NCBI GenBank assembly: GCA_021323795.1
Contig: JAJPKH010000070.1
Location: 1 to 34,071, forward strand
DNA: 34,071 nucleotides
Source: Acidiferrobacteraceae bacterium
Lineage (GTDB): Bacteria; Pseudomonadota; Gammaproteobacteria; Acidiferrobacterales; Sulfurifustaceae
Direction: 5' to 3'
Under the pieces are notes generated by a model, which searched no databases, was not told where the DNA came from, and saw only the letters and a list, made by a program, of their open reading frames with translations. Shown in pieces: positions 1,042 through 29,080 of this stretch; the first letter of the stretch is position 1, and the number at the start of each line of letters is the position of its first letter. The position numbers and the translations under genes are program-made.

Positions 1042-2270
1042 TACCCCGTAAACGCCGCTATCCCCGTCATCGCCCGTCCCAAAATCAACGCATGCACATC
1101 GTGCGTCCCCTCATACGTATTCACCACCTCGAGATTCACCAGATGGCGGATCACCCCGAACTCATCGGAAATCCCATTGCCCCCGTGCATGTCGCGCGCG
1201 AGGCGCGCGATCTCGAGCGCCTTGCCGCAGGAGTTGCGTTTCAGGAGGGAGGTGATCTCCGGCGCCGCCTTGCCTTGATCCTTCAGACGCCCCAGGCGCA
1301 GGCACCCTTGAAGCCCGAGGGTGATCTCCGTCTGCATATCCGCGAGCTTCTTCTGGATCAGCTGATTCGCCGCGAGCGGGCGGCCGAACTGCGTGCGCTC
1401 CAAGGTATAGCGCCGCGCCGCGTGCCAGCAGAACTCCGCCGCCCCGAGCGCCCCCCAGGCAATCCCATAGCGCGCGGCATTCAGGCAAGTGAAGGGACCT
1501 TTGAGCCCCGAGACCCCCGGGAGCTCGTTCTCCGAGGGCACGAACACCTGATCCATCACGATCTCCCCGGTAATCGAGGTCCGCAGGCCCACCTTCCCAT
1601 GAATGGCCGGGGCCGAGAGCCCCTTCATGCCTTTCTCCAGGAGATACCCCCGGATCACCCCTTCCTCGTTCTTGGCCCACACGAGAAAGACATCCGCGAT
1701 CGGGGAGTTGCTGATCCACATCTTCGCGCCCGAGAGCGTGAACCCCCCGGGGGCCCGCCGGGCCCGGGTCTCCATCCCGCCCGGATCCGACCCGTGGTTC
1801 GGCTCGGTCAACCCGAAGCAGCCGATCAACTCCCCCCGGGCGAGCTTCGGGAGGTATTTCTCCTTCTGCGCGTCGCTCCCGAACTCATAGATCGGGAGCA
1901 TGACGAGGGAGCTCTGCACGCTCATCATCGAGCGATAGCCCGAGTCCACCCGCTCGATCTCGCGGGCAATCAACCCGTAGCAGACATAGTTCAGCCCCGC
2001 CCCCCCGTACGCCGGGGGCAGCGTCGGCCCGAGTAACCCGATCTCCCCCATTTCGCGAAAGATCGCGGGATCGGTGCGCTCGTGGCGAAACGCCTCGAGC
2101 ACCCGGGGCATGAGGCTCCCCGCGCAGTACGCCTGCGCGGCGTCGCGGATCAGGCGCTCGTCTTCGCTCAGTTGTTCTTCGAGGAGGAAGGGGTCGGACC
2201 AGTTGAACGTCGGAGCGGATCGTTTCGCCCGCGCACCCGTGTCGACTTCGTGGTTTCCGAATAGAGTCAT
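1041..2270 (-). CDS. gcdH: Glutaryl-CoA dehydrogenase (acyl-CoA dehydrogenase family)
   Basis: A 409-residue FAD enzyme that oxidises and decarboxylates glutaryl-CoA to crotonyl-CoA, the last special step of the lower benzoyl-CoA pathway, in the cytoplasm. Family marks are [17 protein letters not shown] and [12 protein letters not shown] (flavin and substrate loops), then [18 protein letters not shown] and a C-terminal [16 protein letters not shown] carrying the catalytic glutamate. [11 protein letters not shown] and YEGTHD are typical of glutaryl-CoA dehydrogenases rather than short-chain acyl-CoA dehydrogenases. The frame stays open upstream to 2516, but that stretch lies inside oah and looks non-protein-like. 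The ATG at 2270 overlaps the oah stop (ATGA) and gives the usual family length. The hemerythrin start follows with a one-base overlap. Confidence 0.93.
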
Positions 2271-3394
2271 TTGGGTTTCGCCATCACTTGTTCGGCGAAC
2301 GTGTCGTCGAATAGCGCCCCTTGAGCGACGAGCTGGCGATACTTGACGAAATCGATCACGTCCTTGCCGGTTTCTTTCTTTGACGCGAAGGCATTGAAGC
2401 CGAGCCAAGCCTCGTGATTCATATTGGCGGCGAGCCAATGACGGTTGGCGAGCTTCATCTGGTCCCAGAAAAATTTCTTCTTGGCGCGGATGCCGTCGAT
2501 CGACTTCATCAGGCAATGCGGGAACAGATTGGTGAACTTCCAGATAATGGCGTTCACTTCCTTGTCCAACAGTTCGAAGTCGATCTGGGACTGCGCCATC
2601 AGTTCCTTCGCCTTGATTGCCTGGTCTTTTCCCACCGGCTCGCCATAGACGATTTCACCGTCGGCCACGTACGTGTCGGTGCGCACGAGCGGGTTACGAA
2701 TCCAGCGCTCGTCGTTTTTTAATACCGGAACCGCCGCCGTAATGAGGCCCTTGGCCTTCATTTTGTACGCGCTCCACGTTTCGCACGAGATGCAGTTGTA
2801 CATGGCGTCTTCGAGGGACAAGAACCACGGAAGAAAATCGGTCGATCCGCCGTCCGGCGCCGAGCCGTGCTTGGGACCGGCTTGGCCATAGACGGCGAGA
2901 TCGGAGGAGATCGTCAGATCGGTCGCCATGCCGATCTCCTGGCCGCCGGCGACGCGCATGCCGTTGACGCGGCAGATCACGGGTTTTTTGCAGTTCAGGA
3001 TGCCGTCCACCATGGCGTTGAACAAATCCATGTACTCGCCGTATTCGTTCGGGCGGCGCGAATAGTAAGCCGCATATTCGGCGGTGTTGCCGCCGGTGCA
3101 AAACGCCTTGTCGCCGACCGCGGTGAACACGACCGCCACGATGCGGCGATCGGAGGACGCTTTTTGAAAACCGGCGATCACGCCCTTTACCATTTCGGTG
3201 GTATACGAATTGTACTGCGCCGGGTTGTTCAACCAGATCCAGGCGGAATAGAGTCCCTCGGCCTCCCGGCCGCCGGCGTCGACGATCGGGCGCTCCTCAT
3301 AAATGACGCCCGGCGCTTCGCGGCGGAAATGACCGTCGTCGAGAAGCTGATGGTTTTTCAGCTTGTCGTCGCGGCGTAACCAATTCATAGCCAT
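2267..3394 (-). CDS. oah: 6-oxocyclohex-1-ene-1-carbonyl-CoA hydrolase (ring opening)
   Basis: A 375-residue crotonase-superfamily enzyme (Oah/BamA/BzdY). It adds two waters to 6-oxocyclohex-1-ene-1-carbonyl-CoA and opens the ring to 3-hydroxypimelyl-CoA. The family is recognised by [20 protein letters not shown], by [17 protein letters not shown] (oxyanion-hole region) and by [20 protein letters not shown], a run highly specific to Oah. The length matches the family. An AGGAG sits nine bases before the ATG at 3394, which therefore beats the second ATG two codons on. The gene is separated from had by 30 bases, and its stop overlaps the gcdH start. Confidence 0.96.
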
Positions 3395-3424: not shown

Positions 3425-4492
3425 TCAGAAATCCGGTGTCAGCACCACGCGTTTCTTAAGCGCGCCGTGATGCGCGTCCTCGAAGACGCGTTGAATCTCG
3501 CGCATGGGCAGGACCTCGACGAAGGGTTCCAGCGCGATCTTCCCGTTCACGCACATTGCCAATACCTCCGGATAGGCGGAGGGCGGGCAACCCCACGTGC
3601 CGATCAGTTCCGCGTCGAAAGCCATGAGCTTGGAGAGCATGTAGGACGTCTCGTCGGTGCCGAAACCGACCACGACCAGCGTGCCGACGAAGGAGAGCAG
3701 CGCCAGCGCCAGCTCCTGTCCGGGCTTGGTGCCCGTGACCTCGAAAATTTTCCAGCCGTAGTTGGCCGGCAGACGGTTTTCCTTGCAATAACTCTTGAAC
3801 AGCTCTTTCACTTCCTTCGGGTTTTTGCCCTTGGGGTTGATTGTGAAATCGGCCCCGTAGCCTTGCATGAAGCGCAGCTTCTCGTCGTTGATGTCGATGC
3901 CGATCACCGCCTTGGCGCCCATGCCTTTTGCGACCTGAGTCATGAAACCGCCGACGCCGCCGGCGGCGCCGATGACGATGACGAGATCGCCGGGCTTCAC
4001 GCGGGCGCGCCGCGCCGCTTGATAAGGTGTGGTGACGGCGTCGGCGATCACCGCCAGATGTTCTAGGCGCATGCCCTTGCGATCGCCGACGGCGCACAAG
4101 TCCCGCGCCGGCGCCGGAATGTGGCTCGCGAACCCGCCGTAGATGCCCATCGAGTTGCCCGGCATTTTCTGGTTGAGGCAACGGTTCGGCCGGCCCATGC
4201 GGCAGATGTCGCAATCGTTGCAAGGCAGCACCGCCGGTACGATGACTTCTTTCCCGCGCAACGCGGAGTCGCCGGCCACGACGACGCCGACGATTTCATG
4301 GCCGAGGATGAGCGGCGGTTTTTGAATCGTCGGCACGCCCATGTAGAAATAGGAGAGATCCGTATGGCAGACGCCGCAGCCTTTGATCTCGACCAGCACT
4401 TCGCCCGGCTGGAGCGCCGGCATCGGAATTTCGGCGCGCACCAGTTTGCCGGGTGCGGCCATCTGCCAGGCTTGAATGGTTTGCGGAATCAT
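3425..4492 (-). CDS. had: 6-hydroxycyclohex-1-ene-1-carbonyl-CoA dehydrogenase
   Basis: A 355-residue zinc-dependent medium-chain dehydrogenase (Had/BzdX) that oxidises 6-hydroxycyclohex-1-ene-1-carbonyl-CoA with NAD. Visible are the catalytic zinc region GCGVCHTD (Cys39) and GHE (His65-Glu66), four structural-zinc cysteines at 91, 94, 97 and 105, and a Rossmann loop GAAGGVGGF. Position between dch and oah fits the pathway order. The frame is open back to 4768, but that part lies inside dch. Two starts are possible: ATG 4510, overlapping the dch stop by four bases, and ATG 4492. The second has AGGAG six bases upstream and begins at the natural N-terminus MIPQTIQAW, so it is preferred. Confidence 0.94.
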   Translation of the reverse strand: MIPQTIQAWQMAAPGKLVRAEIPMPALQPGEVLVEIKGCGVCHTDLSYFYMGVPTIQKPPLILGHEIVGVVVAGDSALRGKEVIVPAVLPCNDCDICRMGRPNRCLNQKMPGNSMGIYGGFASHIPAPARDLCAVGDRKGMRLEHLAVIADAVTTPYQAARRARVKPGDLVIVIGAAGGVGGFMTQVAKGMGAKAVIGIDINDEKLRFMQGYGADFTINPKGKNPKEVKELFKSYCKENRLPANYGWKIFEVTGTKPGQELALALLSFVGTLVVVGFGTDETSYMLSKLMAFDAELIGTWGCPPSAYPEVLAMCVNGKIALEPFVEVLPMREIQRVFEDAHHGALKKRVVLTPDF

Positions 4493-4506: not shown

Positions 4507-5280
4507 TCATCGGTTTTTCCACACGGGTTTGCGCTTCTGTAGGAAGGAGGTCAGCCCCTCCCGGGCGTCTTCGGTCGCCATCAGCTCTTGCAGATAAATC
4601 CGGTCGGCGCGCGCGAGCCCATCGAGGAACGGCCGGCCCTGCGCCTCGCGCAGCGCCTTCTTGGTCAGGATCAGCACCGTCCGCGACAACGCAAGAAACC
4701 GATTCACGTACGCGCGCGTCTCCGCGGCGAAATTTTCCTGGGGAAATACTTTGGTGACGAGTCCGCACTGCAAGGCTTCGTCGGCGCTCAGGCTTTCGCC
4801 GCCGAGCACCAGCTCATACGCCTTGCCGCGGGCAATGAGTTTGGGTAGCAGCGCCGCCGCGACGGGCGGAAATACGCCGAGCTTGATTTCCGGCTGGCCG
4901 ATCTTCGCGTGGCTCGCCGCAATCACCATGTCGCAGCTGATGGCGAGCTCGCCGCCGCCGCCGAGCGCCACGCCGTTCAAGGCGGCGATCGTCGGGATGG
5001 GCATCTCGTCCACGCGGCGGAAAATGCCACTGAACGTATGAATCATGCGTTCCACTTTGTCCGGCGTGTGATCGGCGACTTCCACGCCCGCCGAAAACGC
5101 CTTCGTGCTGCTGCCGGTGATAAGGAGCGCTTTCGCCTCGTGATCCGCCGCGGCCGCTTCGAGCGCTTTTTGAAGCTCCTCCATCGCGGCGATATCGAGC
5201 ACGTTGTAAGGCGGCTTATTAATAGTGAGCGTGATCAAGCCGGCGTCGCTGCTATAGGTAATGAGCTTGTCGTTCGCCAT
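4507..5280 (-). CDS. dch: Cyclohexa-1,5-diene-1-carbonyl-CoA hydratase
   Basis: A 257-residue crotonase-family hydratase (Dch/BzdW). It adds water to the dienoyl-CoA made by benzoyl-CoA reductase, giving 6-hydroxycyclohex-1-ene-1-carbonyl-CoA. Visible are the N-terminal INKPPYNVLDI, the oxyanion-hole segment FSAGVEVADH and the second signature LNGVALGGGGELAISCD, then GQPEIKLGVFPP. Length and motifs are typical. The start has AGGAG six bases upstream, and that Shine-Dalgarno overlaps the TAG of bzdV eight bases away, so the two genes are coupled. Downstream it abuts had. The order bzdV-dch-had-oah equals bzdVWXY of Azoarcus, as recalled. Confidence 0.95.
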   Translation of the reverse strand: MANDKLITYSSDAGLITLTINKPPYNVLDIAAMEELQKALEAAAADHEAKALLITGSSTKAFSAGVEVADHTPDKVERMIHTFSGIFRRVDEMPIPTIAALNGVALGGGGELAISCDMVIAASHAKIGQPEIKLGVFPPVAAALLPKLIARGKAYELVLGGESLSADEALQCGLVTKVFPQENFAAETRAYVNRFLALSRTVLILTKKALREAQGRPFLDGLARADRIYLQELMATEDAREGLTSFLQKRKPVWKNR

Positions 5281-5288
5281 GGTCGCTC

Positions 5289-7820
5289 CTAAAACAAGTC
5301 GTCCAGCTCGCTCGATCCGCCGCCCGGCATCTTACCGTACTGCTGCAAGTAGGCCTGGATCAGCTGGCTCTCGCGCTGGGTGTACATCGGCGCTTCTTCG
5401 TAGACGAAGTGCTTGGCCGCCTGATTTTTGCCCAACTGTTCCACCAGCCCGGCGCGAATATTTTCCGTTCCCTTGATCATCAGGACGTTCTTGTCCGCAT
5501 CGAGCAACTGGAACACCCCGGCCGCCGCGGTGACGGCGGCGACGGTGGAATCGGTGAAATCGAGCCACGCCTCGGGCGGCAACACCATGTCCTGGATTTT
5601 CGCCGCGAGGTTGCACTTGAGGCAGCGGCTCGCCTCGAAGCGGGCCATCGCGTCGTCGTAACCTTTTTCGATCTCGTCCCAATTGGCGCGCGCGCCCGGC
5701 GCGAGCATGATCGGATGAACCTTGCGGCGCTGATTGAAACCGTCCTCGCGGCCGATGTGCGGGTCGGTGTCCCAGTCATCCGGCAGGAGCTTCTCCTCGA
5801 TGTCGCCGTCGCCGCCGAGCTGCCTGTCGATCGCCGCCGCCGCGATGCGTCCTTGGGCCACCGCGTCGATCAACGTCGCCGGTCCGAGCACGCAGTCGCC
5901 GCCGGCGTACACGCCGGGGCGACTGGTGAGCAGGGAATCCTCGCGTACGGTGATGCGACCGCGGGCGTCCGTCTGTACGCCGAAGCCCGCGAATTTTTTC
6001 GGATGCTGGCCGACCGCGGCGATGACGAGATCCACCTCCTCGGTGAACTCGCTGTCGGGCACCTCGATCGGCCGGCGGCGGCCGGAGGCATCCGCTTCGC
6101 CGAGCTGCATCTTGGCGTAGGTGATTTTCAATCTCGACGTGCCCGCGGGATTCGCCTCGATCTTCTTCGGCGCGAGGAGAAAGCGCAGGTTGACGCCTTC
6201 ATCGATGCAACCCTGGATCTCTTCTTCCCGCGCCGGCATTTCGCCGCGGGTGCGCCGGTAAATCATGTCGACGACGTCGGCGCCGAGGCGGCGCGAGGAG
6301 CGCGCATTGTCGGTGGCGACGTTGCCGCCGCCGATTACGGCGACGTGCTTGCCGGTGGAGACGCCGGCGCCGGGCGTATTGACGAGCCGCATGGTGGCGG
6401 CGCGCAGGTAAGTCGGGCTGTCGAGAACTTGCGGAAGATCATCGCCCGGCACGCCGAGCTTGTCGCCGTCCTCGCAACCGGTGCCGATGAACACGGCCTC
6501 GAAGCCCTGCGCGAACAGGTCGTCGAGACTTTCGACGCGCGCACCGAAGCGAAATTCGACGCCGAGCTTTTGCACTTCGCCGACTTCGCGGTCGATTACC
6601 GCGATCGGCACGCGATAAGAGGGAATGCCGTAGCGCGCCATGCCGCCCGCCGCCGCTTGGGCGTCGAAGACGGTGACCGCGTGGCCTTTCTTCGCGAGGT
6701 AGTAGGCGACGGTCAATCCGGCCGGGCCCGCGCCGATGACGGCGGCTTTCTTGCCGGTTGGGGGCAGCTGTTTCGAATGGGCGCGCCATAGGCCGGTGTC
6801 GTTGTCGTCGGCGACGCGCTTGAGCGTGCGTATCGATAAAGGATCGTCGAGCATACCGCGACGGCAAGCCGACTCGCACATGGCGAAACACGCGCGTCCG
6901 AGAATGCCCGGAAAGGGCAGCTTCTCGCGCACCACGGCGGTCGCCTCGCCGTACTTTCCTTCCGCCGCGAGCTGCACGTAGCGCGGCACATCAATGCCGG
7001 CCGGACAGGCGGCTTTACACGGAACTTGCGTTTGTTCGAGTCGCGCCGGATCGAGAGTGCGATCGATCAGCGCGCCGGTGGGGCAGACCGCAACGCATGC
7101 CCCGCAGAACTTGCAACCCGATTCGATCAACGTCGGGTTGATGGTGCCGACCCAGGTGCGGCCGCCGGTGTTCTTAATCTCCAGACAACCGACGCCGCGC
7201 ACGTCGTTGCAGGCGACGAGGCAGCGCCGGCAGTCGATGCACAAGTTGTAATCGCGATCGTAGAACGGCTCGTTCTTGATCACCGGCAGTTTCACGTGCT
7301 TGTACGCCGGCGTGGTGTTGGGTATGCCGATGTAGTCGGACACCTTGCGCAGCTCGCAGTGGTTGAAGATCGCGCAGCAGCGCTGTTCGGGCGCATTGCC
7401 GTACGAGCACTGGGTGCGGCTGCAACCGTCGCGCTGCGGGCACGTGAGGCAAACGTGCGGATGATTGCCGAGGATCGCGCCGATGCGTTCGCTACGGCGC
7501 TTGTCGATGGCGGGCGAGCGCGTCACCACGCTCATGCCGTTCGCGACCGCCACCGCGCAGGACTTCACCAGGCCGCCGACGCCGGCGATCTCAACGACGC
7601 ACACATCGCAGCCGCTGTCGCCGGTGCAGGCCGGCGGCAAGTCGGGATGCGCGCAAAGTGCCGGGACATATATGTTCGCCGCCGTCGCGGCGGCGAGCAC
7701 CGACACGCCGGGAGGGGCGCTGACGGGTTTGCCGTCGATGGTGAGCTGCACCCGCGGCCCGGGCGCTGCCTCGCCGTGCGGCTGTTTCCACCATGTAACG
7801 GCGGGTGGGGACACTCCCAT
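5289..7820 (-). CDS. bzdV: NAD(P)H:ferredoxin oxidoreductase BzdV-type, multi-cluster flavoprotein
   Basis: An 843-residue soluble iron-sulfur flavoprotein that probably feeds reduced ferredoxin to benzoyl-CoA reductase. Domains in order: NuoG-like [2Fe-2S] domain (Cys56, 71, 74, 88); His-Cys3-type [4Fe-4S] region (H120/H122, C124, C127, C133); two ferredoxin [4Fe-4S] motifs (C194/197/200/204 and C236/239/242/246); a GltD/NfnB-like part with CKAACP at 268-273, FAD loop GAGPAG 363-368, nucleotide loop GGGN 497-500, FAD site GGD 640-642 and RCLKC 732-736. Residues 768-843 form an extra tail resembling a degenerate GIY-YIG domain. ATG 7820 has GAGGAG eight bases upstream; the GTG at 7856 has no Shine-Dalgarno. 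The product ends in acidic residues plus LF. It heads the leftward operon behind an FNR-type site. Whether NADPH or NADH is the donor cannot be seen. Confidence 0.88.
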   Translation of the reverse strand: MGVSPPAVTWWKQPHGEAAPGPRVQLTIDGKPVSAPPGVSVLAAATAANIYVPALCAHPDLPPACTGDSGCDVCVVEIAGVGGLVKSCAVAVANGMSVVTRSPAIDKRRSERIGAILGNHPHVCLTCPQRDGCSRTQCSYGNAPEQRCCAIFNHCELRKVSDYIGIPNTTPAYKHVKLPVIKNEPFYDRDYNLCIDCRRCLVACNDVRGVGCLEIKNTGGRTWVGTINPTLIESGCKFCGACVAVCPTGALIDRTLDPARLEQTQVPCKAACPAGIDVPRYVQLAAEGKYGEATAVVREKLPFPGILGRACFAMCESACRRGMLDDPLSIRTLKRVADDNDTGLWRAHSKQLPPTGKKAAVIGAGPAGLTVAYYLAKKGHAVTVFDAQAAAGGMARYGIPSYRVPIAVIDREVGEVQKLGVEFRFGARVESLDDLFAQGFEAVFIGTGCEDGDKLGVPGDDLPQVLDSPTYLRAATMRLVNTPGAGVSTGKHVAVIGGGNVATDNARSSRRLGADVVDMIYRRTRGEMPAREEEIQGCIDEGVNLRFLLAPKKIEANPAGTSRLKITYAKMQLGEADASGRRRPIEVPDSEFTEEVDLVIAAVGQHPKKFAGFGVQTDARGRITVREDSLLTSRPGVYAGGDCVLGPATLIDAVAQGRIAAAAIDRQLGGDGDIEEKLLPDDWDTDPHIGREDGFNQRRKVHPIMLAPGARANWDEIEKGYDDAMARFEASRCLKCNLAAKIQDMVLPPEAWLDFTDSTVAAVTAAAGVFQLLDADKNVLMIKGTENIRAGLVEQLGKNQAAKHFVYEEAPMYTQRESQLIQAYLQQYGKMPGGGSSELDDLF

Positions 7821-7874: not shown

Positions 7875-7888
7875 TGCACAATAATGCA
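7875..7888 (-). promoter_or_regulatory. BzdR/BoxR-type operator upstream of bzdV
   Basis: TGCA at 7875-7878 and 7885-7888 are separated by six bases. Read on the minus strand it is TGCATTATTGTGCA, sharing TGCATTATNNTGCA with the operators at 8061 and 28115. It lies at about +11 to +24 of the predicted leftward transcript, a place suited to repression. Confidence 0.72.
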
Positions 7889-7905
7889 TGCCACCAACGC
7901 AAAGG

Positions 7906-7911
7906 AGTGTA
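7906..7911 (-). promoter_or_regulatory. Predicted -10 element of the bzdV promoter
   Basis: On the minus strand this reads TACACT (TAnnnT). Counting seven bases on puts the start near 7899, exactly 41.5 bases from the centre of the FNR-type site at 7934-7947. No -35 hexamer is needed at a class II FNR promoter. Confidence 0.5.
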
Positions 7912-7933
7912 TGCGAGATTTTCTGCCTGCTAT

Positions 7934-7947
7934 TTGACCTACATCAA
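7934..7947. promoter_or_regulatory. FNR/AcpR-type site for the bzdV promoter
   Basis: TTGAC-CTAC-ATCAA matches the FNR consensus TTGAT-N4-ATCAA with one mismatch. Its centre (7940.5) is at -41.5 of the predicted leftward start, the class II activator position. Confidence 0.65.
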
Positions 7948-8012
7948 GTTGAGACCGAAAAACACGTGCTTCAATAAGCCGTGATAGCTAGGAAGAAAAA
8001 GTGTGATAGTTC

Positions 8013-8026
8013 TTGATTTGGGTCAA
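8013..8026. promoter_or_regulatory. FNR/AcpR-type site for the bzdN promoter
   Basis: TTGAT-TTGG-GTCAA matches TTGAT-N4-ATCAA with one mismatch. Its centre (8019.5) is at -41.5 of the start predicted from TACCAT at 8049-8054. This should restrict reductase expression to anoxic conditions. Confidence 0.7.
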
Positions 8027-8048
8027 ATCGCGATGCGGAGTAGTTCTC

Positions 8049-8054
8049 TACCAT
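8049..8054 (+). promoter_or_regulatory. Predicted -10 element of the bzdN promoter
   Basis: TACCAT has the TAnnnT form and puts the start near 8061, which is also the first base of the downstream operator. CATGAT at 8052-8057 is an alternative. Confidence 0.5.
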
Positions 8055-8060
8055 GATACA

Positions 8061-8074
8061 TGCATTATCCTGCA
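8061..8074 (+). promoter_or_regulatory. BzdR/BoxR-type operator at the bzdN start site
   Basis: TGCATTATCCTGCA is TGCA-N6-TGCA and sits inside a longer inverted repeat ACATGCA/TGCATGT (8058-8077). It covers the predicted transcription start, so a bound repressor would block initiation. It shares its core with the sites at 7875 and 28115. Confidence 0.77.
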
Positions 8075-8105: not shown

Positions 8106-9242
8106 ATGAGCGGACTGTTCGACCAATTCAAGCAGTGGTACGACAAGCGCCACGATTACGCCCGCGCCTGGAAGGCGCGCACCGGCGGTACGGTGGTCGC
8201 GACGATGTGCACCTATACGCCCGAGGAGCTTCTGATCGCCGCGGGGATGTTACCGGTGCGCGTGCTCGGCGCGCACGAGCCGCAAAACGTAACCGAGCCG
8301 CATATCTTCGGTATGTTCTGTCCCTTCTGCCGCGATTCGCTGGCGCAGGGATTGCTCGGTCGCTACGCGTACGCCGAGGGCGTGACGCTGACGCAGTCCT
8401 GCATCCAGTACCGCCAGACCTTCAATTCCTGGCGCGCGCACGTGCCGACGGTCAAGTGGGATTACTACCTGCCGATGCCGAACGAGGTGCAATCGCCGCA
8501 CGCGAAGAAACTGCACCGGGAGGAAGTACGAAAGTTCCGCGCCTTCCTCGAGACGACGCTCGGCCGCAAGATTCCCGACGCCGATTTGAAGCAGGCGATC
8601 GAAACGGTGAACAAAAACCGGCGGCTGCTAAAGCAGCTGTTCGACTTCCGCAAGGAGGAAAATCCGCGCGTCACCGGCCTCGAAGCACTGTACGCGTCGA
8701 TCACCGCGCAGTTCATCGATAAGGCGGACCACAACCGCGAGCTCGAGCGAGTGATCGCGGAGGTCAAGAAGCGCCCGAACGACCGCGACGAGGGCGTGCG
8801 CCTCATGACCATCGGGAGCGAGAACGACGACTGCGGCTTCATGGCGATGATCGAGTCGGTCGGTTGCACCATCGTGATCGACGATCAATGCTCGGGCACG
8901 CGCAACTTTTGGAACGAGGCGCAGATCAAGGACGATCCGATCGTCACCATCGCCGACCGTTATTGCGAGCGCCCGGCCTGTCCGACCAAGGACTATCCCG
9001 CGCACACGCGCTTCGATCATGTGTTGAAGCTCGCCAAGGACTACAACGCGCGCGCGGCGATTTTCCTGCAACAGAAGTTTTGCGATCCGCACGAGGGCGA
9101 CTATCCGGATCTTAAGAAGCATCTCGAGTCGAACGGCATCCCGACGCTGTTCCTCGAGTTCGACATCACGAATCCCTTGGGACCGTTCCGTATTCGCGTC
9201 GAGGCGTTTTTGGAAACGCTGCGCGAAGAAGAATTGTTCTGA
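8106..9242 (+). CDS. bzdN: Benzoyl-CoA reductase, bzd-type, subunit N (BcrC-like)
   Basis: A 378-residue subunit of the active-site half of ATP-dependent benzoyl-CoA reductase, which reduces benzoyl-CoA to cyclohexa-1,5-diene-1-carbonyl-CoA. It belongs to the 2-hydroxyglutaryl-CoA dehydratase D family. Iron-sulfur ligand candidates are Cys35 (MCTYTPEEL), Cys72 and Cys75 (FCPFC), with later cysteines in [11 protein letters not shown] and [10 protein letters not shown]. The frame is open back to 8013, but that stretch covers the promoter and operator. ATG 8106 has GGGGAG seven bases upstream and fits family length. It is first gene of the rightward operon. The bzd rather than bcr class is chosen because both ATPase subunits further on are short. 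The product ends in EEELF. Confidence 0.94.
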
Positions 9243-9262: not shown

Positions 9263-10579
9263 ATGACTGCGCCGCAAAGATATCCCACCAAGCCGCTCGA
9301 GCTGTGGAAGAAGGCGAAGGAGTTGCGCGAGAAGTATTATCTCGACTACGCGCGCGCGAAGGAGAAGGGCGGCATCCGCTGGTCCGGGAGCGCCTGGGCG
9401 CTCGACGCGATTCCCGAGGGGCTCGGCACCGACGTGTATGCGCTCACCGGCGAGCCCTACGCCGCGACCGTGGCGCACGATGCGAAGTTCAACAAGCAAT
9501 GCCAGGATGCGGCCGAAGCCGCCGGCTTCGCGCGCGACCTGTGCGCGTACATGCGCACCTACTGGGGCTCGATTTATATTAATAAGTATATTTTCGGCGG
9601 CGAATTTCCCAAGCCCGATTTCAATTTCCAGACGCAGATCTGCTGCTCGCACAGCAAGTGGTACCAGCATGCCGCGCTTTTGGAGAAAGTGCCGTCATTC
9701 TTCATCGACGTCGGCGTGGGACCGCATAAGGATCTTGACGAGGCGCGCATCACGTACGTGGCGAACCAGGGGCTCGACGCGATCAAGTGGATGGAAGGCG
9801 CCACCGGTCGCACCTACAACGACGAGCTCTTCATCGAGGCGGTCAAGAACGAAATGCGCTCGACCTCGCTGTGGGCGGAGATATGTGCGCTGAACAAGGC
9901 GGTGCCCGCGCCGCTCGATGAGAAAACCATGTATTCGCTCTACGTGCTGGCGACGCTCAACAAAGCCAAGCGCTGGTGCGCGGATTTCTACGCCGAGCTG
10001 CGCGACGAGGTCGCGGAGCGGGTCAAGAGCGGCATCGCCGCCGTCGGCAACGAGCGCTGTCGCGTGATGTCCGACACGCAGCCGCCGTGGGCGTTCCTCA
10101 AGATTTTCCGCTATCTCGAGGAATTCGGCGCGGTCTCGATCGGATCGCTTTATACCTTCGGACTCGAGGGCATCTGGGAGACCAAACCCGACGGCACGTG
10201 GGGCCCGCGCACCACGCCGATGGACAAGGGGGTGGAGATCAAGACACGCGAGCAGGCGATGCGCCTGTACGTCGAGTGGAACCTGTCGAAGCCGCAGTGG
10301 CAGCACTTCTACGACCCGCGCCTCAAGACCGAGATGATGAAGACCATCGTGCGCGAGTGGAAAGTAGACGGCGTGATGCTGCATCTCAACCGCGGCTGCG
10401 AGGGATTGTCGATCGGCATCATGGAAAACCGCCTCGGTCTCGCGGCGGCGGGAATTCCGGTAATGACGTTCGAGGGCAACATGGGTGACGACCGCGAGTT
10501 CGACATGGTGCGTACGCAGAACCGGGTGGATTCGTTCATGGAGACACTCGGGCTGAAGCGCAGTTTCGTTCACGCCTAG
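9263..10579 (+). CDS. bzdO: Benzoyl-CoA reductase, bzd-type, subunit O (BcrB-like)
   Basis: A 438-residue partner of BzdN in the catalytic half of the enzyme, same dehydratase-related family. Visible marks are [12 protein letters not shown] with paired cysteines, [21 protein letters not shown], and near the C-terminus [13 protein letters not shown] and [12 protein letters not shown], all characteristic of this subunit. GAGGAG lies six bases before the ATG. The gap from bzdN is 20 bases and to bzdP 15 bases, so one transcript is expected. Length matches BcrB/BzdO. Confidence 0.95.
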
Positions 10580-10594
10580 CGAGGAGACATCGAC

Positions 10595-11401
10595 ATGTAT
10601 ACGGCAGGCATCGACATGGGAGCGCGCTCGGTCAAGGTGGTTTTCCTGGAAGAGCTCAAGGTCGAGGGGGCGCCGCAGCTCAAGTGGGGCGTGAAAAAGA
10701 CGCACATCATGTTCCCCGAAGACCTGGACATGGACGTCGCCGCCGAAAAGGCCTACACCGAGGCGCTGCAATTGGCGGGCCTCGCGCGCGAAGCCGTCGG
10801 CCGGGTCGTCGCGACCGGCGCGGGGCGCAAGCAGGTGAAGTTCGCCCAGGACAACGTGACCGAGGTTAGCGCCGGGGCGCGCGGCGCGGTATTCATGCAC
10901 CCCTCGGCGCGCACCGTGATCGACGTGGGCGCCGAGGAAGGGCGCGGGATCAAAGCCGCGCCCGACGGCAAGGTCGTCGACTTCGCCGGCAACGAGAAGT
11001 GCGCCGCCGGCGCGGGCGCCTTCGCCGAATCGATGTCGCGCGCGCTGCAGCTCTCGCTCAAGGATTTCGGCGAAGCGAGCCTGCGCTCGGAGAAGACCAT
11101 TCCGATGAATGCGCAGTGCACGGTGTTCGCGGAGTCCGAGGTGGTATCGCTGATTCACGCCAACACGCCGAAGGAAGACATCGCCAAGGCCGTGCTCGAC
11201 GCGGTGGCGTCGCGCGTGTGCGCCATGGCGCGGCGCGTGGGCATCGAGGAGGACGTGGTGTTGATCGGCGGCATGGTCCACAACCCGGGGTTCGTGAGAT
11301 CGCTCCAGGGCGCGCTCGGCGTGGACAGGGTATTGCTCCCCGATCTTCCGGAATACGTGGGCGCTTTGGGCGCGGCGCTGATCGCCGCAGAAATCCATTG
11401 A
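10595..11401 (+). CDS. bzdP: Benzoyl-CoA reductase, bzd-type, ATPase subunit P
   Basis: A 268-residue ASKHA-fold ATPase subunit. Together with BzdQ it binds ATP and a bridging [4Fe-4S] cluster and drives electrons from ferredoxin to the catalytic half. Seen are the phosphate-1 loop GIDMGARSVKVV, NEKCAAGAGAF (cluster cysteine), a second cysteine in QCTVFAESEV and the adenosine loop GGMVHNPGFV. The phosphate-2 region reads VIDVGAEEGRG instead of the GGQDxK of the partner. I recall that variation as normal for BcrD-like subunits. A good Shine-Dalgarno (GAGGAG) precedes the start. Confidence 0.93.
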   Translation: MYTAGIDMGARSVKVVFLEELKVEGAPQLKWGVKKTHIMFPEDLDMDVAAEKAYTEALQLAGLAREAVGRVVATGAGRKQVKFAQDNVTEVSAGARGAVFMHPSARTVIDVGAEEGRGIKAAPDGKVVDFAGNEKCAAGAGAFAESMSRALQLSLKDFGEASLRSEKTIPMNAQCTVFAESEVVSLIHANTPKEDIAKAVLDAVASRVCAMARRVGIEEDVVLIGGMVHNPGFVRSLQGALGVDRVLLPDLPEYVGALGAALIAAEIH

Positions 11402-11411
11402 GGAGGCCGCT

Positions 11412-12341
11412 ATGACGACATCGGCTTTTGCTACGACGGCCGCGACCGCAGGAGAGAAGAAGGAGTACTGGCGCTGGGAAGAGAGCGCCTGGGTCGACGA
11501 GACCATGAACTGGCGCGACGCGAAGTTCATTACCGCCGGCATCGACGTCGGCTCGGTATCGTCGCAGGCGGTGGTGGTGTGCGACGGCAAGCTTTTCGGT
11601 TACAGCTCGATGCGCACCGGCAGCAACAGCCCCGATTCCGCGCGTAATGCCATCAAGGCGGTGATCGAGAAGTGCGGCATGACGCTCGACAACATTCACT
11701 TCGTGGTCGGGACGGGGTACGGGCGCGTGAACGTGCCGTTCGCGCACAAGGCGATCACGGAAATCGCCTGCCACGCGCGCGGCGCCAACTTCATGGGCGG
11801 CTCCGCCATCCGCACCATCCTCGACATGGGCGGTCAGGACTGCAAGGCGATCCATTGCGACGAGAAGGGCAAGGTCACGAACTTTCTCATGAACGACAAG
11901 TGCGCCGCCGGCACCGGCCGCGGCATGGAAGTGATCGCCGATCTGATGCAGATCCCGATCGCCGAGCTCGGGCCGCGTTCCTTCGACGTCGACGAGGAAC
12001 CGGCGGCGGTGTCGTCGGTGTGCGTGGTGTTCGCGAAATCCGAAGCCCTGGGCCTGCTCAAGGCCGGGTGGAGCAAGAACAAAGTGGTGGCGGCCTACTG
12101 CCAGGCCATGGCGGAACGGGTAGTGGCGCTGCTCGAGCGCATCGGCGTGGAAAAGGAGTTCTTCATCACCGGCGGCATCGCGAAGAACCCCGGCGTGGTC
12201 CGGCGCATCGAGCGGATACTGAAGCTCGAGGCCGTCAAGACGAAGTACGACAGCCAGATTGCCGGCGCGCTCGGGGCCGCGCTGTTCGGCTACACGCTGG
12301 TGCAAAAGCAGGGCGTGCCGGCCAAGGCGGCCGCCTCGTGA
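11412..12341 (+). CDS. bzdQ: Benzoyl-CoA reductase, bzd-type, ATPase subunit Q
   Basis: A 309-residue ASKHA ATPase, partner of BzdP. After an N-terminal extension of about 40 residues rich in Trp and acidic residues come GIDVGSVSSQAVVV (phosphate 1), ILDMGGQDCKAI (phosphate 2), NDKCAAGTGRGMEV (cluster cysteine), VCVVFAKSEA (second cysteine) and TGGIAKNPGVV (adenosine). The length near 300 residues, not the roughly 430 of Thauera BcrA, places the enzyme in the Azoarcus bzd class. GAGGAG lies six bases before the ATG. The stop overlaps the GTG start of the ferredoxin gene by four bases. Confidence 0.94.
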   Translation: MTTSAFATTAATAGEKKEYWRWEESAWVDETMNWRDAKFITAGIDVGSVSSQAVVVCDGKLFGYSSMRTGSNSPDSARNAIKAVIEKCGMTLDNIHFVVGTGYGRVNVPFAHKAITEIACHARGANFMGGSAIRTILDMGGQDCKAIHCDEKGKVTNFLMNDKCAAGTGRGMEVIADLMQIPIAELGPRSFDVDEEPAAVSSVCVVFAKSEALGLLKAGWSKNKVVAAYCQAMAERVVALLERIGVEKEFFITGGIAKNPGVVRRIERILKLEAVKTKYDSQIAGALGAALFGYTLVQKQGVPAKAAAS

Positions 12342-28055: not shown

Positions 28056-28096
28056 AATTTCCCACCCTCAAATCTTGCGAAAGTGAATTATAATGC

Positions 28097-28125
28097 TTGA
28101 ATCAGTTTTATGAGTGCATTATTAT
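28097..28125 (+). promoter_or_regulatory. Predicted sigma-70 promoter of boxR-boxCBA
   Basis: TTGAAT at 28097-28102 and TATTAT at 28120-28125 are 17 bases apart. The start would fall near 28132. The -10 overlaps the operator, so the regulator should repress its own gene and boxCBA. Confidence 0.6.
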
Positions 28126-28128
28126 GCA
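28115..28128 (+). promoter_or_regulatory. BzdR/BoxR-type operator between boxD and boxR
   Basis: TGCATTATTATGCA is TGCA-N6-TGCA and shares TGCATTATNNTGCA with the two bzd sites. It covers the rightward -10 and lies over the -35 region of the leftward boxD promoter, so one site can repress both directions. Confidence 0.77.
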
Positions 28129-28177
28129 TACTCCGTCCCGATTGGCAACAGCGTGCCTGCACTTTATAGAGGTCGAT

Positions 28178-29080
28178 TTGGCGCAGCCATCGTCCGCCGA
28201 CTTGAAAGGTTCTAAATCCGTAGCCTCCACCAATGCCCCGGGAGACACGGAATTTCTCGCGGCTCTCGGTAAGCGCGTGCGCGAGTTACGCGAGCAGCGC
28301 GGCATGGCGCGGAAGGTGCTCGCCCGGGACGCCGACGTTTCGGAGCGCTATTTGGCGCAGCTCGAGGCGGGGGCGGGCAACGTGTCGATCGTGCTGTTAC
28401 GCCGCATCGCCCAAGCGCTGGGTGTGTCGCTTGCGGAATTGTTAAGCGAGCAGGGGCGCACGGTGGAGCACCGGTTGATCCGGCGGCTGCTCGAGCGATT
28501 GCCGGAACATCGGCTGGAAGAAACGATTTTCCGTTTGATGCGGGAGTTGGGCGGGCAGGAATCGGCGCGCAAGCAACGCATCGCGTTGATCGGGCTGCGC
28601 GGCGCGGGGAAGACGACGCTCGGCGGTCTGCTCGCTGCGGAACTGCACGTTCCGTTCATCGAGTTGGATCGCGAGATCGAACGCGAAGCCGGCATGGCGC
28701 TGAGTGAAGTGTTTCTGCTTTATGGGCAGGGCGGTTACCGCCGCATGGAGCGGCGGTGTCTCGAGCACGTCATTGAAACGCAGGAGCACGGCGTCATTTC
28801 GGTGGGCGGGGGCATCGTCTCGGAACTCGACACCTACAATCTTCTGCTTTCGAATTGCTTCACCGTTTGGCTGAAGGCATCGCCGGAAGAACACATGATG
28901 CGCGTCGCCGCCCAGGGCGACCTTCGCCCGATGCAGGACAACGAAGAGGCGATGGAAGACTTACGGCGCATTCTGAATGCGCGCCAAGCGCTGTATGCGA
29001 AGGCGGACGCCGAGGTCGACACTTCCGGACAGACGCCGGAAGAAAGTTTAAAGAGATTACGTCAAGCCGTACTAGCTTGA
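28178..29080 (+). CDS. boxR: BzdR/BoxR-type transcriptional regulator (HTH-XRE plus shikimate-kinase-like domain)
   Basis: A 300-residue repressor sensing benzoyl-CoA in its family. Residues about 25-90 are an XRE helix-turn-helix (KRVRELREQRGMARKVLA, then VSERYLAQLEAG). Residues about 133-300 form a shikimate-kinase-like domain with Walker A GLRGAGKTT (139-147), the effector-binding part. The start is the main doubt. TTG 28178 has GAGG five bases upstream, follows the predicted promoter and gives the BzdR length of about 300. An in-frame ATG at 28124 lies inside the operator and upstream of the predicted transcript start, so it is less likely. BoxR and BzdR cannot be told apart by eye; neighbours favour BoxR. 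It is the only such gene in the window. Confidence 0.9.
   Translation: MAQPSSADLKGSKSVASTNAPGDTEFLAALGKRVRELREQRGMARKVLARDADVSERYLAQLEAGAGNVSIVLLRRIAQALGVSLAELLSEQGRTVEHRLIRRLLERLPEHRLEETIFRLMRELGGQESARKQRIALIGLRGAGKTTLGGLLAAELHVPFIELDREIEREAGMALSEVFLLYGQGGYRRMERRCLEHVIETQEHGVISVGGGIVSELDTYNLLLSNCFTVWLKASPEEHMMRVAAQGDLRPMQDNEEAMEDLRRILNARQALYAKADAEVDTSGQTPEESLKRLRQAVLA

Follow-up and report, generated by a model that had tools for sequence, protein, structure and literature searches.

The window, that is, the whole stretch of 34,071 nucleotides analysed here, carries two divergent bzd operons. Their first genes, bzdV (ATG at 7820, leftward) and bzdN (ATG at 8106, rightward), are separated by a gap of 285 bp, within which both FNR-like sites described below are located. 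The right operon starts with bzdNOPQ, the genes of a bzd-type benzoyl-CoA reductase, and 4-hydroxybenzoyl-CoA reductase genes are found further right. The left operon contains an acyl-CoA dehydrogenase gene in addition to the genes listed in Table 1. The same contig carries a box cluster at a distance of 20 kb, with boxD read leftward and boxR, boxC, boxB, and boxA read rightward.

Table 1. Genes and regulatory features of the two bzd operons and the box cluster (positions in the window).
Feature	Position	Strand	Basis or remark
oah, 6-oxocyclohex-1-ene-1-carbonyl-CoA hydratase	2267-3394	-	TIGR03200, above cut-off
had, 6-hydroxycyclohex-1-ene-1-carbonyl-CoA dehydrogenase	3425-4480 (start approximate)	-	TIGR03201, above cut-off
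dch, dienoyl-CoA hydratase-like	4507-5280	-	TIGR03189 is the best-named match, below cut-off; place in operon
bzdV-like NAD(P)-dependent oxidoreductase with N-terminal ferredoxin-like domain	5289-7820	-	NCBIfam; first gene of left operon
BoxR/BzdR-type operator TGCA-N6-TGCA	7875-7888	-	+12 to +25 of leftward promoter; motif from PMC6449761
Predicted leftward transcript start	7899	-	inferred from -10 position
-10 hexamer TACACT	7906-7911	- (complement)	22 bp downstream of leftward FNR-like site
FNR-like site, bzdV promoter	7934-7947	-	TTGACCTACATCAA forward, TTGATGTAGGTCAA in promoter orientation
FNR-like site, bzdN promoter	8013-8026	+	TTGATTTGGGTCAA
-10 hexamer TACCAT	8049-8054	+	22 bp downstream of rightward FNR-like site
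Predicted rightward transcript start	8061	+	inferred from -10 position
BoxR/BzdR-type operator TGCA-N6-TGCA	8061-8074	+	+1 to +14 of rightward promoter
bzdN, benzoyl-CoA reductase subunit N	8106-9242	+	TIGR03190, above cut-off; first gene of right operon
bzdO	9263-10579	+	TIGR03191, above cut-off
bzdP-like activase subunit	10595-11401	+	TIGR00241, above cut-off; position between O and Q
bzdQ	11412-12341	+	TIGR03192, above cut-off
boxR/bzdR-type repressor, XRE and shikimate-kinase-like domains	28097-29080	+	NF006015, above cut-off; true start probably further in
BoxR-type operator, box divergon	28115-28128	+	TGCA-N6-TGCA

The two FNR-like sites of the gap are separated by 65 bp, and TTGACCTACATCAA and TTGATTTGGGTCAA each deviate from TTGAT-N4-ATCAA at a single position; read outward, both have the form TTGATNTNGGTCAA. 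Thus, their positions and sequence bear out the sequence-only reading, which had claimed two such sites with one mismatch each. In class II FNR promoters of E. coli, a TTGAT-N4-ATCAA-like site at -41.5 takes the place of the -35 element. The centres of the window sites fall at 7940.5 (left) and 8019.5 (right), and both -10 hexamers are of the TAnnnT type, occupying -12 to -7 relative to the predicted starts. This agrees with the further claim that each site is centred 41.5 bases from its start; the starts are predictions from the hexamers, and the distance is exactly 41.5 because a six-base discriminator was assumed. On the inward sides of both sites, no TAnnnT was found within the 40 nt scanned. 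The -10 hexamers are weak, matching TATAAT at four of six positions. Counted from the predicted starts, the leaders would be 79 nt long for bzdV and 45 nt for bzdN, and both genes have good ribosome-binding sites (GGAG in the case of bzdV). Together, a near-consensus box, a -10 hexamer about 22 bp after it, and a four-cysteine FNR encoded in the genome mark both arms as putative class II FNR promoters.

Four proteins of the genome exceed the cut-off for the Crp-type helix-turn-helix. One of them (L082, G000:C150) is a true FNR, which scores 262 bits against the Fnr model (cut-off, 228) and has FNR crystal structures as its best structural relatives. It carries a C-x2-C-x5-C motif, the fourth cysteine in ETSEVCEIP, and an ETVSR recognition helix, and all four cluster cysteines are thus present. 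Across the genome, the pattern TTGAT-N4-RTCAA gave 23 forward and 21 reverse matches, as compared to 1 for the reversed control pattern, and a TAnnnT at 21 to 23 nt on either side accompanies 9 of the 23 sites listed. Judged by eye from their sequences, the genes that follow these sites include those of a universal-stress-type protein, a cbb3-type oxidase subunit, a cytochrome cd1-type nitrite reductase, and a multihaem cytochrome. Two further proteins, L081 and L083, have the same ETVSR recognition helix without the N-terminal cysteine cluster and are therefore possible alternative readers of FNR sites. Dnr/FixK-like proteins bind TTGAT-N4-ATCAA, and if another such member of the Crp/Fnr family read the activating sites at -41.5, the cue might be NO, nitrate, or another signal, and the gate would be respiratory rather than set by oxygen itself. 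We consider this unlikely, given that a true FNR is encoded in the genome and that both AcpR and E. coli FNR activate the homologous promoter of Azoarcus (PMC6678401).

That promoter, PN of Azoarcus sp. CIB, drives bzdNOPQMSTUVWXYZA. AcpR, a member of the FNR/CRP superfamily, binds it at -41.5 and is required for its activation without oxygen, E. coli FNR substitutes for AcpR in vitro, and BzdR represses PN via TGCA operators until benzoyl-CoA is present (PMC6678401). BoxR, the BzdR paralogue controlling the box genes, acts on PN too (PMC4424350), and the motif of both repressors is ATGCACTATAGTGCAT (PMC6449761). We found TGCA-N6-TGCA three times in the window against 0.35 expected. Genome-wide tests, carried out as pattern and family searches, located TGCAYTATNNTGCA at only three places in the whole 3.35-Mb assembly, namely, the two bzd promoters and the box divergon. 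Between 7801 and 8110, no TGCA was detected beyond one exact operator per promoter, and the OR1-OR3 triplet of Azoarcus sp. CIB is not present. Of the mirror-image layout that had been proposed, the spacing between FNR site and -10 is indeed symmetrical, but the operators depart from it, the right one occupying +1 to +14 and the left one +12 to +25. In most divergent relatives (see below), the operators are one-mismatch forms, with no exact TGCA-N6-TGCA. The genome also encodes a second BoxR-like protein (L114, G000:C114:2742-3563), which is 48% identical to the BoxR of the window and whose gene adjoins that of a short-chain dehydrogenase.

At the box divergon, no FNR-like site with fewer than three mismatches was found, which confirms the earlier statement that the box promoters have none. 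This region (28085-28128) has a perfect TATAAT near the BoxR operator, whereas the -10 hexamers of the bzd promoters are weak; this difference would be in line with activator-independent transcription of box.

We drew gene maps for 80 relatives of BzdN from a scan of one genome per species. The divergent bzdV/bzdN order of the window recurred in 12 of them (L001, L002, L003, L004, L006, L007, L009, L010, L011, L012, L018, and L020), and all 12 have two FNR-like sites, one ahead of each gene. Because both sites are kept in every relative with the same gene order, the paired-promoter pattern is very probably real. An outward TAnnnT at 22 to 23 nt accompanies all 26 sites, including those of the window, while an inward one at 21 to 23 nt was found at only 1 of 26. 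The outward hexamers of the relatives are mostly TAGAAT or TAAAAT, those of the window being weaker. Their spacing from site to -10 is 22 nt on the right and 22 to 23 nt on the left, where it is mostly 23 as compared to 22 in the window. From locus to locus, the two sites lie between 61 and 383 bp apart, with no helical constraint; therefore, the arms have been kept and the spacer has not. All 13 divergent loci keep a run of four to five T (in promoter orientation) that begins or ends 15 nt ahead of the left FNR site, at about 7958-7962 in the window, and is reminiscent of an UP element.

The gene order also matters for the site ahead of bzdV, which is present in 13 of 13 divergent loci but in none of the 40 loci with a co-directional bzdV (at most one mismatch, 350 nt before bzdV). 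Upstream of bzdN, an FNR-like site within 300 nt was found in 51 of the 80 relatives, and the TAnnnT that follows the site is most frequent at 21 nt (13 loci) and 22 nt (14 loci). The PN-type bzdN promoters of Aromatoleum/Azoarcus belong to the 21-nt set and thus have nearly the spacing of the window.

These observations bear on whether both sites drive transcription. One of them could do so alone, with the other serving as a looping, repressing, or accessory site; the window sites are 65 bp apart, so that an interaction is physically possible, and the left -10 of the window is weak. However, each site has its own outward -10 in 13 of 13 loci while the intervening distance varies over the range given above, and a site accompanies bzdV only when the gene is divergent, which makes this explanation very improbable. 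Chance matches or decayed, non-functional sites, which the single mismatch per site and the weak -10 hexamers of the window might suggest, are scarcely credible and were rejected: under a first-order Markov model, the 285-bp gap is expected to hold only 0.015 sites with one mismatch or none, 0 of 5,000 shuffles of the gap yielded a pair of such sites, a TAnnnT exactly 22 nt outward of both sites has a P of ~0.00015 (~0.001 if 21 to 23 nt are allowed), and both arms are deeply conserved throughout a clade from which the window branches off early.

In the BzdN tree, a single supported clade (100/99; 23 rows) takes in all divergent loci; the window and L005 branch early within it, and some of its members have other layouts. 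The two arms of one locus are 24 to 53% identical around the -10, mostly in the -10 itself and the AATGC that follows; with this degree of identity, the left promoter may or may not have arisen as a copy of the right one. An AACC-N13-GGTT inverted repeat fills the stretch from the right FNR site to the -10 in L008 and in all divergent relatives but L012 (11 of 12); L005, L016, and the window lack it too. Another regulator may bind there. A different arrangement was seen in the Sulfuritalea-type clusters (L023, L024, L029, L042, L047, L053, L056, and L057), where the divergent genes boxR and bzdN have one FNR-like site between them. Toward boxR, a TATAGT-like TAnnnT is located only 10 nt from the site and in most clusters forms part of a BoxR-type operator; toward bzdN, some clusters have a TAnnnT at 22 to 24 nt. 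The 10-nt spacing would suit repression of box, and one site could then turn box off and bzd on.

For the window, we propose that the 285-bp gap holds two separate sigma70 promoters, which would fire outward and independently of each other. The FNR of the genome, active only without oxygen, would activate each of them from -41.5 in place of a -35 element, touching RNA polymerase in the class II manner at both. BoxR bound to TGCA-N6-TGCA at or just after the start would block each promoter until released by benzoyl-CoA. An AND gate of anoxia and benzoyl-CoA would then act equally on bzdNOPQ, for ring reduction, and on bzdV-dch-had-oah, for electron supply and modified beta-oxidation, while the box promoters would have the BoxR gate only. 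The sites, their spacings and conservation, the FNR and BoxR genes, and the exclusive genome-wide operator set were all seen in the analysis; from them we infer the start points, binding, activation, repression, and regulatory logic. That the gap contains two independent class II FNR promoters, each with a BoxR operator, and that box is under BoxR alone, appears highly likely to us. What speaks against it are the weak -10 hexamers of the window, the 23-nt left spacing of most relatives, the degenerate operators of most divergent relatives, and the two Crp/Fnr proteins with the same recognition helix as FNR. The presence of TGCAYTATNNTGCA at all three promoters and of an FNR site at the bzd promoters only leads to the scheme of FNR plus a benzoyl-CoA repressor for bzd and the repressor alone for box, which is a well-supported prediction from sequence. 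The idea that oxygen control is laid on top of shared benzoyl-CoA control for the reductive route only is likewise supported as a prediction by the footprint in 13 of 13 loci, the encoded FNR, the similar spacing in Aromatoleum/Azoarcus, the published activation of PN from -41.5 (PMC6678401), the operator set, and the box divergon lacking an FNR site.

The tetranucleotide profile of the contig correlates with that of the other contigs of the genome at 0.993, and wrong binning was set aside on this basis. Within the family of the window (Acidiferrobacteraceae), to which genome G018 with locus L019 also belongs, bzdN was found in 2 of 20 genomes; the pathway is therefore patchy in the family. 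The BzdN of the window groups with betaproteobacterial BzdN. Together with the patchy distribution, this grouping suggests horizontal transfer.

In the divergent-bzd lineage, a full second promoter with FNR and BoxR elements appears to stand before bzdV, placing the same gate on both halves of the pathway. We lean toward the view that the splitting of the operon went along with a copying of its regulatory logic, through either promoter duplication or convergent building. If true, this would be a recurrent and testable case of an operon split accompanied by such copying. The predicted oxygen gate stands before bzdV only where the gene needs its own promoter (13 of 13 versus 0 of 40). From sequence alone, and with strong comparative backing, the two-promoter scheme predicts how a bacterium with both the oxygen-dependent box route and the oxygen-independent bzd route would choose between them, with a shared benzoyl-CoA gate and an oxygen gate on bzd only. 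The literature searched, which comprised papers available without subscription, contained no account of paired FNR sites at divergent bzd operons.

As compared to the class II FNR promoters of E. coli, the window adds a predicted ligand-released repressor and has two divergent copies. The AadR/BadR/BadM system of Rhodopseudomonas palustris (cited in PMC4424350), which controls benzoyl-CoA reductase genes, similarly combines an Fnr-family activator with pathway-specific regulation but differs in its specific regulators, BadR and BadM, and in its gene set. The BoxR/BzdR regulons surveyed in Betaproteobacteria share the ATGCACTATAGTGCAT-like operators and the arrangement of boxR-boxCBA opposite boxD and a ligase; in contrast to the window, bzd genes occur in only one surveyed genome, and the term FNR is absent from the survey (PMC6449761). 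The closest counterpart is PN of Azoarcus sp. CIB, which has the FNR/AcpR site at -41.5, a sigma70 -10, TGCA-type operators, bzdN as the first gene, and benzoyl-CoA as the inducer (PMC6678401, PMC4424350), all of which are seen or predicted here as well. PN, however, is a single promoter whose one operon is co-directional, and it comes with three operator regions and a bzdR of its own. In the window, the operon is split, bzdV-dch-had-oah would be served by a second, mirror promoter, and the BoxR-type regulator of the contig is encoded in the box cluster 20 kb away. Thus, the mechanism is already known from PN; what appears to be new is its second, divergent copy, and with it the promoter type studied in Azoarcus is extended to a layout of two divergent operons.
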